From: Akkermansiaceae bacterium
Lineage (GTDB): Bacteria > Verrucomicrobiota > Verrucomicrobiia > Verrucomicrobiales > Akkermansiaceae
DNA: 64,000 nucleotides
Direction of reading: 5' to 3'
Assembly: GCA_029866215.1 (NCBI GenBank)
Contig: JARWZU010000011.1
Location: forward strand, 62,001 to 126,000
Numbering within the stretch: the first letter of the stretch is position 1; the number at the start of each line of letters is the position of its first letter. The notes beneath the pieces were generated by a model. The model was not told the origin of the DNA. It saw nothing but the letters and a program-made list of their open reading frames with translations, and ran no database searches. This document shows, piece after piece, positions 49,354 to 54,470 of this stretch. The translations under genes and the position numbers were made by a program.

Positions 49354-50253
49354 CTAATTCTGGAGTTCGCCGAGGGATTTCTTTTGGTAGCCTTCATCGC
49401 GCAATTTCCTGAGGTATTCGAGGCTACGTTGTTGCGCCAGCAGATTGGGTTGGCTCGTTGGTGTTGGGTCTTGGCCGTATTTTTTCCAGGGGCCGTAGGG
49501 GACCTGGCTCGCTTCGACAAAGCGCCAGTGGACGCGTTTTCCTGAGCCTAGGCTGAGGTAATCGCGGATGGAGGGTGAGATGTCGATGCCGGCCGCGCCG
49601 TTCTGGGTGTTTTTGGGCGGCTTGTTGCCGAAGACGAACTCCCAGTCATCGGTCACCCAAGGGCCACAATCTTCCCACTGCGCATAGCAACTGCGACTTC
49701 CGTTGTAAATCTGGACCCAGCGACCTTTGCAGACGGATTTCCCTGGCTTTGGCTGCGTCCGTGCAAACCACGGGATGACTTTGGAAGCTTCCGGTTTGTG
49801 GGTGTGGGAATCGGCGATGTCGTTGTACGGCAGGGCGACGTAAAATGGGTTGAGCTTTGGAATAAATCCTTTCGGGCGGAAGTCGCCAGTGGAATGGTTG
49901 GCGATACGATTTGAAGGGCTTGGATCGTCCACCCCGCCAAAGTTGCTGGTCCATTTTTGGTCCCAAGACGACATGTGGTTGGTCACTGGGTTGCGTTTAC
50001 AGGGGTCTTCTCCGACCCAAAATACCGTGCAGGTGACACGAATTTTCCATGGGTAACGGATCGGTGATGCGGGGACTTGGGTCGCAGCGGAGGAGGATCT
50101 CGATCGATCACCGGTGGACACGACCACTCGGGGCGCGTTAGATCTGCTGGTGGTCTGCAGATCCGCCATGGCAGGCCCTGCGCACAGGACGAGCATGAGA
50201 ATGGACAAAAGTGGGTTTTTCAGCAGAAATGACATGACACGAGAAACGGCCAA
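49354..50253 (-). CDS. Secreted conserved hypothetical, possible RlpA/double-psi beta-barrel-like fold
   Basis: Signal peptide; 'NPFYVALPYNDI...CKGRWVQIYNGSRSCYAQWEDCGPWVTDDWEFVFG...GAAGIDISPSIRDYL' resembles DPBB layout (inference). Confidence 0.65.
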   Translation of the reverse strand: MAVSRVMSFLLKNPLLSILMLVLCAGPAMADLQTTSRSNAPRVVVSTGDRSRSSSAATQVPASPIRYPWKIRVTCTVFWVGEDPCKRNPVTNHMSSWDQKWTSNFGGVDDPSPSNRIANHSTGDFRPKGFIPKLNPFYVALPYNDIADSHTHKPEASKVIPWFARTQPKPGKSVCKGRWVQIYNGSRSCYAQWEDCGPWVTDDWEFVFGNKPPKNTQNGAAGIDISPSIRDYLSLGSGKRVHWRFVEASQVPYGPWKKYGQDPTPTSQPNLLAQQRSLEYLRKLRDEGYQKKSLGELQN

Positions 50254-51224: not shown

Positions 51225-52166
51225 ATGGAGCATTTCCACTCAACAAAATCTTCGCTGCATGGCATCGGTTGCAAGGTCTCTCAACCGTTGGAAGATGGGA
51301 GGGTAGTGAATTCAGGCGCCCATTCGATATTCTCGCGCCGTGGCTTTTTGTTGCTCACCGCAGGGCTTGCCAGCTGCACCGCTGCTCCTCCATTGCAAGA
51401 GGTTGCCCTGAAATCAGGGGCAGTACCGAAGGTCGGCTCTGGAGATCGCTCTGTGGCACCTCGCGGACCCGTTCCTCGCAATCCTGATATGGCGCTGAGG
51501 TCTGATTTCGATGCCGGCTCGGGTTCGTCATTCTCAAGGGTTTTGGTTTCAGGGAATTACATCGCCATGACCTTTGACGATGGGCCGCATCCTCAACACA
51601 CACCGCGTCTGTTAGAAATTCTACGCAAGCGGAACATCAAGGCGACATTTTATCTGGTGGGGCGCAGTGTAGATCTCTATCCGCAAGTGGCCCGAAACAC
51701 TCTAGCGGAAGGGCATGAGATCGGTAATCACAGCTACACGCACCGGCTGCTGAGTAAGCTGAGCGACCGGGAAATCCTAGCAGATTTAGCCCGTTGCCGC
51801 GGCTCGATTCAGCGCGCGACGGGTATCATCCCGCGCACGATGCGTCCTCCCTATGGAGGATTGAATGTGCGCCAACGCCAGCTCGTGTGCCAAGAAATGG
51901 GCTACCCTTCCATTTTTTGGTCGGTCGATCCACTCGACTGGAAGCGCCCCGGCGCAAAGGTTGTCACATCAAGGATTCTTCGCGACACCACGAAGGGAGG
52001 CATTATTCTGGCTCATGACATTCATTCGCAAACGGTGGATGCCATGCCTGCCACTCTCGATGGCTTGCTTCGCGCGGGATTTAAATTTGTGACGGTCTCA
52101 CAGTTGATCGCCATGAAGGTCTCTGCACCGGTTCCTCAAGTGGCGGCGGCGACCGCCTCCCTTTGA
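51225..52166 (+). CDS. Polysaccharide deacetylase (NodB-type)
   Basis: 'YIAMTFDDGPHPQHTPRLLEILRKRNIKATFYLVGRSVDLYPQVARNTLAEGHEIGNHSYTHRLLSKLS...RPPYGG'. Confidence 0.93.
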   Translation: MEHFHSTKSSLHGIGCKVSQPLEDGRVVNSGAHSIFSRRGFLLLTAGLASCTAAPPLQEVALKSGAVPKVGSGDRSVAPRGPVPRNPDMALRSDFDAGSGSSFSRVLVSGNYIAMTFDDGPHPQHTPRLLEILRKRNIKATFYLVGRSVDLYPQVARNTLAEGHEIGNHSYTHRLLSKLSDREILADLARCRGSIQRATGIIPRTMRPPYGGLNVRQRQLVCQEMGYPSIFWSVDPLDWKRPGAKVVTSRILRDTTKGGIILAHDIHSQTVDAMPATLDGLLRAGFKFVTVSQLIAMKVSAPVPQVAAATASL

Positions 52167-52182
52167 CTCAATCATTGACCTT

Positions 52183-53910
52183 GTGAACCACTCCGAGTTC
52201 AGCGACCGCCACTTTGCGACGCGTGAACGACTCTCTGAAGTCATCCGCGGCATCGCGGCATTGTCGGAAGAAACGGAGACAGAGCTTGGGCATTTGCTCT
52301 CGGAGTCAGGGGAGCGAATCGATCTTGATTCGCCATGGCTGATGGTCGTGGCTGGGGAGCCAATTGCAGACACGCCTCGCTTCATTCATGGTCTGGTGGG
52401 CCAGGATTTGGGTCCCGGAAACGCCTCGCAGAAGTCGGCTCGCATTCGTTGGTACCGCCATGGACTTGAAACCCGCAACAATACCCGCTCGGCGAATTTC
52501 GAAATTTGCGAGCGGCCGATTGATTTCTTGCGCCGTTTCAGTCTGGTTGAGGTGCCGAGCGCGCAGGTGGGATCTCAAATCCAGCTGGACGCCACCACCC
52601 GCTTGTTACCCCGTGCAGATTTGATTTTCATGGTTTTTCCTGCATCGAATCCTTGGGGAGCGGCGACGTGGAATGCCATCGCAACGTTCCCGCCGGAAAC
52701 TCTTGAAAAGACGGTACTTGTCCTTCAGCAGTCGAATCCGTGCGAGTCATCGGATTTGAAGGTGATCACGGGTCATGTGGCGGATCTGGCGGTGAAGCGA
52801 ATCGGACGGGTTCTTCCGCTTTTTACCGTTTCTGGCAAGCTAGCGAGTGAGGCGAAACGAACCAGTCCGCCCGCGGTGGAGACCTACCAGGCTAGTGGCT
52901 ATTTCGAGTTGGAGCATTTCATTGGGCAGCGGATTCGCGAGTCAAAGGACCGGCAGCAGATGTTGAAAACTTGGTATGAACGCGCGGAATCTGCCATCCG
53001 TCTCATCGATGATCAGATCGAGTCGCAGAGTCGAGCGCTCAGCGACCACGGTCGTTTCCTCGACACGATCGAGCGTGAGATTGATGACATCCGCGAATAT
53101 TTCATTGCCCGCTTGCCCCTTCATCTCGTGGGAGTCGCGGAGGTTTTTCAGTTAGAAACCATTGGGATTGCCAAGGTTCTCCGCCGGCGATTGGCAGTGA
53201 TACCCTCCGTTTATCGGCTTTTTGCGGCGGACCGAACGGGTGTGTCGATCGAGTCGCTTTTTATCGAGCGTCTCCAAGCGGCGGTTGAGGTTGTCGCCGA
53301 GAACGACGGGGCCGAGGTGGTTCTTCACTGCAAGCGCCATCGACAAACGTTGGATGCAAGGGCGAGGGAAACGATGGGGATCGATCTCAAAAATGCCGAT
53401 CAACTGGATGAAGTTTTGGACACGAGTAAAATCCATTTTAAGCAGCATTTGTCAGGGGCCGCTCGACACGGGGTTCATGATTTGCGAGTTCGGCATGAGT
53501 TGGAAAAGCAGATCCGGCGGCGCAATTCGGAGCTGCAGTCGTTCGTGATCGCGGTGCTGATTTCTACGTCGGCAGGAGGAATCACCGGGGCCCTTGGGGT
53601 TGCGTGGCTGCCGTTCGCATGTTGTGGAATTGCGGGGCTTTTGGGGCTTGTTTGCATCGTCAAGGCGTACGGCACCCGACGGGCCATTGAACACGAGTTT
53701 CAAAGTCGCCTGCTGGATGCGTGTGACGAATTTGCGACCATGCTCCGCTCGGATTACAGCGAAGCGCTGCGGCGGGTTTGCCAAGATTACGCATCGTCGT
53801 TGTCAGAGGTTCGAGGCTACCTTTTTCGTGAAAAGCATGCGCTCGCACCGCGTCTCAAGCGGTGGAAAGAGTTGTTCCTCACGCTCAAGGCGGTGGAGCA
53901 GGATCTTTGA
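52183..53910 (+). CDS. Dynamin-like membrane protein with apparently degenerate GTPase motifs
   Basis: GTG start; 'WLMVVAGEPIADTPRFIHGLVG' at P-loop position lacks GKS/T; 'FSLVEVPS' at DTPG position; long helical region; hairpin TM 'SFVIAVLISTSAGGITGALGVAWLPFACCGIAGLLGLVCIV'. Confidence 0.6.
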   Translation: MNHSEFSDRHFATRERLSEVIRGIAALSEETETELGHLLSESGERIDLDSPWLMVVAGEPIADTPRFIHGLVGQDLGPGNASQKSARIRWYRHGLETRNNTRSANFEICERPIDFLRRFSLVEVPSAQVGSQIQLDATTRLLPRADLIFMVFPASNPWGAATWNAIATFPPETLEKTVLVLQQSNPCESSDLKVITGHVADLAVKRIGRVLPLFTVSGKLASEAKRTSPPAVETYQASGYFELEHFIGQRIRESKDRQQMLKTWYERAESAIRLIDDQIESQSRALSDHGRFLDTIEREIDDIREYFIARLPLHLVGVAEVFQLETIGIAKVLRRRLAVIPSVYRLFAADRTGVSIESLFIERLQAAVEVVAENDGAEVVLHCKRHRQTLDARARETMGIDLKNADQLDEVLDTSKIHFKQHLSGAARHGVHDLRVRHELEKQIRRRNSELQSFVIAVLISTSAGGITGALGVAWLPFACCGIAGLLGLVCIVKAYGTRRAIEHEFQSRLLDACDEFATMLRSDYSEALRRVCQDYASSLSEVRGYLFREKHALAPRLKRWKELFLTLKAVEQDL

Positions 53911-53960
53911 GCGAATCGAACCGCAAAATCGCTTCAAATGTAGACCCGCCAGTCACCAAC

Positions 53961-54470
53961 ATGCAACGGGAGGCTTCGCATGACGCAATGAGAGATCAGC
54001 GCTTTGTCGCAAAGCACCGCGGTGGGCCACTTGAGTTGGCGCATCACCAGTTGCTGGTGCTTTGGGCGGCGGATTGCGCGGAGCGGGTATTCTTGCGCTT
54101 CGAAGCGGCACAAGTAGATGATCGGCCTCGGCAAGCCATTGCGGTGGCGAGATTATGGGCGAGGGGAGAGGTTCGCACGGGAGCAGCACAAAAAGCATCG
54201 GTCGCCGCGCACGCTGCGGCCCGTAGTTTGAGCAATCCATTAGCGGTTGCCGTCGCACGGGCTGCGGGCCATGCGGCCGCCACCGCTCACATGGCGGATC
54301 ATTGCATCGGTGCTGCCAGCTACGCGCTCAAAGCCATTGAGGCCTCGCAAGGGGCGAGTGACGCCGAACTAGCGTGGCAGGACGCCCAAGTCCCAGAAAT
54401 ACTGCAGGCTTGGATCGTCCCAGCCATGCGCCGCGGGTTTCCTGCTCGATTTCGTGGGAAAAAGGAGTGA
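53961..54470 (+). CDS. Imm5-like putative immunity protein
   Basis: 'HHQLLVLWAADCAERVFLRFEAAQVDDRPRQAIAVARLWARGEVRTGAAQKASVAAHAAARSL...AVARAAGHAAATAHMADHCIGAASYALKAIEA'; start uncertain (53961 or 53988). Confidence 0.72.
   Translation: MQREASHDAMRDQRFVAKHRGGPLELAHHQLLVLWAADCAERVFLRFEAAQVDDRPRQAIAVARLWARGEVRTGAAQKASVAAHAAARSLSNPLAVAVARAAGHAAATAHMADHCIGAASYALKAIEASQGASDAELAWQDAQVPEILQAWIVPAMRRGFPARFRGKKE

Follow-up and report, generated by a model that had tools for sequence, protein, structure and literature searches.

Bacterial dynamin-like proteins (DLPs) are mostly encoded as operon pairs, and the Campylobacter pair relies on heterotypic G-dimers to turn over GTP (PMC6104087). GTP-driven conformational change is regarded as central to how dynamins work, and bacterial DLPs are seen as G-dimerising, usually paired GTPases. 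Nostoc BDLP1, Campylobacter DLP1 and DLP2, mycobacterial IniA and LeoA share an N-terminal neck helix, a Ras-like G domain, a helical stalk and a hydrophobic hairpin. In Bacillus subtilis DynA, membrane tethering and lipid mixing are independent of GTP binding and hydrolysis, whereas phage protection in vivo depends on them (PMC8844932). Among eukaryotes, the GTP-binding sites of vertebrate IRGQ and quasi-IRG proteins are radically modified, with homology kept (PMC1297648), and CENP-M and the p190RhoGAP domains use a GTPase fold without activity as a scaffold (PMC10211241). No natural bacterial pseudo-GTPase DLP was described in the literature that we searched (subscription papers lay outside the search).

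We analyzed a DLP gene in a 64,000-nucleotide stretch of an Akkermansiaceae contig (hereafter the window), the features of which are listed in Table 1. Unlike the bacterial DLPs named above, the window protein lacks G1–G4, is solitary rather than operon-paired and adjoins a polysaccharide deacetylase. Among its closest known counterparts are uncharacterised active Verrucomicrobiales DLPs (for example L035, L071 from Roseibacillus persicicus and L083). Synteny, length and an identity of up to 53% mark these as orthologues, but their motifs are GEVNAGKS or a close variant of it, DTPG and QQxD, which the window protein does not have. The IRGQ and quasi-IRG proteins are likewise members of the dynamin superfamily that have lost the site and persisted; however, they are eukaryotic, coexist with active paralogues and are not orthologous to the window protein. 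The CENP-M and p190RhoGAP pseudo-GTPases resemble it as inactive GTPase folds, but these are small-GTPase folds and not membrane-remodelling DLPs. The DynA K56A/K625A variant is a laboratory mutant that fails in phage protection in vivo (PMC8844932), whereas the loss in the window protein is natural and retained.

Table 1. Features of the DLP locus, in positions of the window; residue numbers refer to the DLP
Feature	Position	Strand	Remarks
RlpA-like ORF (named by eye)	49354..50253	-	
NodB-type polysaccharide deacetylase	51225..52166	+	Pfam PF01522, 116.9 bits; ends about 16 bp before DLP start
Putative pseudo-GTPase DLP (degenerate GTPase motifs)	52183..53910	+	GTG start, 575 aa
Degenerate G1/P-loop, residues 58-66, GEPIADTPR	52354..52380	+	family GEVNAGKST; G63D, K64T, S65P
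Degenerate G2/switch I, residues 82-87, SQKSAR	52426..52443	+	family LPETDR; T85 to S or P
Degenerate G3, residues 122-128, VEVPSAQ	52546..52566	+	family (V/I)DTPGTN
Retained P..NPWGAATW, residues 153-163	52639..52671	+	unchanged in all three species of the clade
Degenerate G4, residues 182-187, QQSNPC	52726..52743	+	family QQxDxR; D185N
Hydrophobic Gly-rich helical hairpin, residues ~455-500	53545..53682	+	BDLP-like paddle / membrane insertion, predicted
Imm5-like putative immunity protein	53862..54470		PF21805, 131 bits

By itself, the window protein matched no GTPase family in Pfam or NCBIfam (PF00350 was missed) and had no useful sequence match in the PDB; its matches to PUMA_CC, ThrE and IRSp53 were dismissed as coiled-coil or hydrophobic noise. 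We therefore relied on its relatives, which were searched for in 99 and then in 260 related genomes. Most of these genomes contained one relative, with identities of 89 and 83% in two sister species and at most 53% elsewhere, and the 50 loci from named genomes belonged mostly to Akkermansiaceae or other Verrucomicrobiales. Dynamin_N was matched by 47 of the 50 aligned family members, so that a profile search suggested with the original prediction was negative for the window protein, one of the three non-matching members, and positive for nearly all of its family. Orthologues with intact motifs scored 50–80 bits against a cut-off of 27, and an orthologue with 53% identity to the window protein also cleared this cut-off. 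A profile of the whole family compared with the PDB matched a Campylobacter DLP (E = 5e-17), Nostoc BDLP (E = 1e-9), IniA and yeast Fzo1. The Dynamin_N and PDB matches establish the family as a genuine branch of the bacterial dynamins that is as yet uncharacterised.

The AlphaFold2 model of the window protein, computed with the 50 family members as input (pLDDT 86), comprised a G domain, a long helical stalk and a hydrophobic hairpin, with helices at residues 436–470 and 476–538 and a hydropathy maximum of 2.25 at residue 475. In a Foldseek search against the PDB, BDLP (2j69) was the best match (E = 5e-14), followed by IniA, the Campylobacter DLP pair (including Cj-DLP1) and EHD/mitofusin structures, with a probability of 1.00 for BDLP, IniA and Cj-DLP; whole-chain TM-scores were only about 0.4, a low value that is expected when molecules are hinged. 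An active orthologue modelled from the same 50 sequences had an identical architecture and the same top matches. Because the predictor was fed active homologues, the alignment itself imposes part of the predicted G-domain fold, and the model is no independent proof of that fold. In the switch II block (residues 121–140), confidence was 68 and 58 for the window protein, compared with 90 and 87 for the active orthologue. The original prediction of a dynamin-like layout is thus borne out by the model, its structural matches and the Dynamin_N matches of the family. With Dynamin_N homology evident through the relatives, a predicted G domain with a neck and trunk and a predicted membrane-insertion hairpin, but no intact G1–G4, the window protein belongs to the dynamin superfamily by descent and predicted fold and, judged by its sequence, is not a GTPase.

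The GTP-binding motifs had been sought in three stretches of the window protein, beginning (to within one residue) at residues 55 (VVAGEPIADTPRFIHGLVG), 121 (LVEVPS) and 179 (VLQQSNPCE). Alignment with the orthologues paired these stretches with GEVNAGKST (G1), DTPGT (G3) and QQADQR (G4), and the predicted loss of the P-loop and G3 was confirmed. For G4 the prediction was right in that the Asp is gone, but NKxD was the wrong reference; the intact G4 of this family is QQxD, so that only the Asp is missing and the QQ is kept. The switch-I Thr (T85), which had been overlooked, is also gone. The replacements recur in the two sister species that form a clade with the window species: G1 is GEANADTPC in both sisters, and across the three species G2 is SQKSAR, SQKPAR or LPKSAR, G3 is EVPSAQ or DVPSAQ (family DTPGTN), and G4 is QQSNPC or QQSNPG. 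Within G3, D123E is confined to the window protein, and T124V and G126S are common to all three. Among near-invariant positions, 9 of 20 in the motifs were replaced in all three species, compared with 5 of 69 elsewhere (Fisher's exact test, P = 2.7e-4), and in a control pair of related active proteins 0 of 20 were replaced. The segment P..NPWGAATW is kept, with P153, N156–A160, T162 and W163 being invariant columns of the family alignment; from its position, it is the putative counterpart of the trans-stabilising loop of the dynamin G-dimer. Chance misalignment of the motifs was rejected, as the alignment covers the G domain, the flanking strands are intact and the neighbours are about 50% identical, and so was assembly error, as the same motifs and an open frame occur in three separately assembled genomes.

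The P-loop was intact in 182 of the 187 relatives that cover it (K or R being accepted at the lysine, and the set including a few more distant DLPs). The five exceptions fell into two clades, namely, the three species above and a pair of genomes (G007 and G031) in which the P-loop reads SEDSDTGSR or SEEAATRTR, G3 is lost and G4 has been deleted. The DLP tree called for two changes, although a single clade was not rejected (AU test, P = 0.30), and with the deacetylase tree the topology constrained to one clade scored higher (AU test, P = 0.81). Because neither tree could decide, we used a tree of EF-G and ribosomal protein L2, in which one clade of motif-less species was rejected (AU test, P = 3e-35). 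In this tree, the window clade lies beside G049, G035, G032 and G037, all with intact DLPs, and G007/G031 lie beside G201 and G199, in neither of which a DLP was found. The species tree suggests that, barring gene transfer, of which we saw no hint, the GTP site was lost twice. Since all three sister species share the loss and a second lineage apparently underwent it independently, the canonical motifs seen in the wider family do not refute it, even though the original prediction had offered such motifs in orthologues as a refutation. The second motif-less lineage (L107 and L108) has small genomes (1.8–2.1 Mb) and has lost further conserved residues, including part of NPWGAATW; it may therefore have progressed further than the window clade. 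A different pattern was observed at L129–L138, from a genus that is probably Akkermansia: a similar loss had been suspected in these distant orthologues, but their P-loop is intact and they vary mainly at G3 (DTGD, DTIG, NTRG) and G4 (THTD, THAE), which is possibly another route of GTPase change. Most of these loci had no deacetylase neighbour detectable at the threshold used.

We then considered whether the gene is a pseudogene or in early decay, the whole protein having become dispensable too recently for the frame to have been broken. Over the whole gene, the three clade species gave pairwise dN/dS values of 0.24, 0.21 and 0.21, and over the G domain values of 0.21–0.28; the second motif-less pair gave 0.20. 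These values of about 0.2 equal those of active pairs with similar dS (0.15–0.26) and of the neighbouring deacetylase (0.22 against the nearest sister). No in-frame stops were present at dS up to 0.44 in the window clade or 0.54 in the second lineage, whereas simulated neutral substitution produced about 6–10 in-frame stops per branch, with 0 of 1000 runs free of stops; neutral decay was ruled out on these grounds. The replacements are, moreover, concentrated at nucleotide-contacting positions rather than spread over the protein. Some observations do fit early decay. G199, a genome of the same genus that is 95% complete, keeps the deacetylase with no DLP adjoining it (L226), indicating that the DLP is dispensable in some relatives and can vanish altogether, and G201, also of this genus and closely related to the second motif-less lineage, has no detectable DLP, its deacetylase lying at a contig end. 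In addition, the stem branch leading to the three species is long, at 0.67 changes per site with the motif columns removed; together with the low dN/dS thereafter, this suggests a burst of change followed by renewed constraint. The length of the stem also leaves room for a shift in function beyond simple scaffolding. On balance, we consider early decay unlikely.

The combination of a predicted dynamin fold, family membership and nucleotide-contacting residues of G1–G4 lost under purifying selection lends good support to the reading of the window protein as a pseudo-GTPase, as the original prediction had proposed. The best explanation, which we regard as probable, is that it is a solitary pseudo-GTPase DLP that acts as a nucleotide-independent scaffold or tether of the inner membrane and derives from an active Verrucomicrobiales DLP. 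The starting point would have been an active, single-copy Verrucomicrobiales DLP encoded beside an exported polysaccharide deacetylase. Before the three sister species diverged, all nucleotide-contacting motifs would have been replaced in their ancestor, while the G-domain fold, stalk, hairpin and putative G-dimer loop persisted. As far as the residues tell, the present protein would no longer bind or hydrolyse GTP, although some pseudo-GTPases do bind nucleotide. The hairpin would keep it in the inner membrane, and the stalk and G domain would assemble without nucleotide into a constitutive oligomer, a scaffold or tether for organising the envelope at remodelling sites, perhaps where the deacetylase acts. 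This last step is modelled on DynA, in which neither GTP binding nor hydrolysis is needed for tethering membranes or mixing lipids (PMC8844932). We infer that the protein probably serves in cell-envelope maintenance.

Alternatively, the pocket may have been rebuilt so that it still binds a ligand, such as another nucleotide or a lipid head group, and still switches. The remodelled loops are alike among the three species, the window protein differing from its sisters at a few positions, and D185N in G4 alone would alter base preference, since an Asp-to-Asn change in G4 shifts base preference in Ras-type GTPases. However, all of K64, S65, G63, T85 and G126, the residues with which P-loop GTPases hold phosphates and magnesium, have been replaced, and the Pfam and NCBIfam searches recognised no alternative motif. 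A small chance at most is left for such a pocket.

The original prediction had also suggested an active partner, for which the genomes offered no candidate. A Dynamin_N search returned only weak matches in the window genome, namely, Der and HflX (named by reading the sequences), and only weak matches of the same kind in the other four motif-less genomes, whereas in G001, G013 and G034, three genomes whose DLP has intact motifs, the same search recovered that DLP. Searches with the LeoA family (NF041922), the window protein and the distant active orthologue L083 found no further DLP, and a hidden active paralogue was rejected because the profile and protein searches of the window genome gave Der and HflX only. 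The assembly of this genome is 97.4% complete in 88 contigs, which leaves the absence of a partner less than fully certain. No second DLP of a heterotypic pair was thus found in the operon or the genome, and most active relatives are single-copy and solitary too. That the protein is a regulatory subunit steering the G-dimerisation of an active DLP is therefore very doubtful: heterotypic pairing is common in bacteria and is needed for GTP turnover by the Campylobacter pair (PMC6104087), and quasi-IRGs have been proposed as regulators of IRG GTPases (PMC1297648), but another DLP was found in none of the five motif-less genomes, the family is single-copy and solitary even when active, and turnover by Cj-DLP1/2 requires both P-loops (PMC6104087).

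Returning to the reading as a GTP-independent scaffold, we found its strongest functional hint in the linkage to the deacetylase, which hints that modification of envelope polysaccharide or peptidoglycan is tied to an inner-membrane dynamin. The deacetylase has a Tat/lipoprotein-like N-terminus (SRRGFLLLTAGLASC; RRGFLLL...LASC) and intact metal motifs (TFDDG and HSYTH, H-x3-H); in NCBIfam, PdaB/PgdA/NodB were closest, below the cut-off. A deacetylase was upstream of the DLP in 154 of 190 loci, many of them incomplete, and in almost all sufficiently long loci one of the same family lay directly upstream, for active and motif-less DLPs alike. The pair (51225–53910 in the window; L033–L128, L238 and L239) extends across Verrucomicrobiales and to at least one other family of the class (two genomes). 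A literature search, with subscription papers outside its scope, found no paper linking DLPs to polysaccharide deacetylases. The pair thus offers a functional lead for an uncharacterised family, in which modification of wall or envelope polysaccharides would be coupled to a membrane remodeller.

A machine believed to be GTP-dependent seems to have been kept for a GTP-free job in a small group of Akkermansiaceae. More tentatively, on two or more independent occasions a GTP-driven membrane remodeller may have become a structural protein that needs no nucleotide, is the sole DLP of its organism and works with a co-encoded exported deacetylase in the envelope. If so, GTP hydrolysis would be separable in nature from a selected part of bacterial dynamin function. 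A solitary DLP under selection without a GTP site, together with active orthologues that are about 50% identical, offers a ready way to learn what the stalk and the membrane part can do alone, and a loss repeated twice would amount to a comparative experiment.

Two further neighbours were observed. In the three sister species of the window clade, an Imm5-like gene comes after the DLP; among the other loci examined, similarity revealed no such gene beside it. The RlpA-like ORF near the window DLP has counterparts beside the DLP in two genomes of another family (L238:629–1477 and L239:3236–4159), which hints at further cell-wall context.
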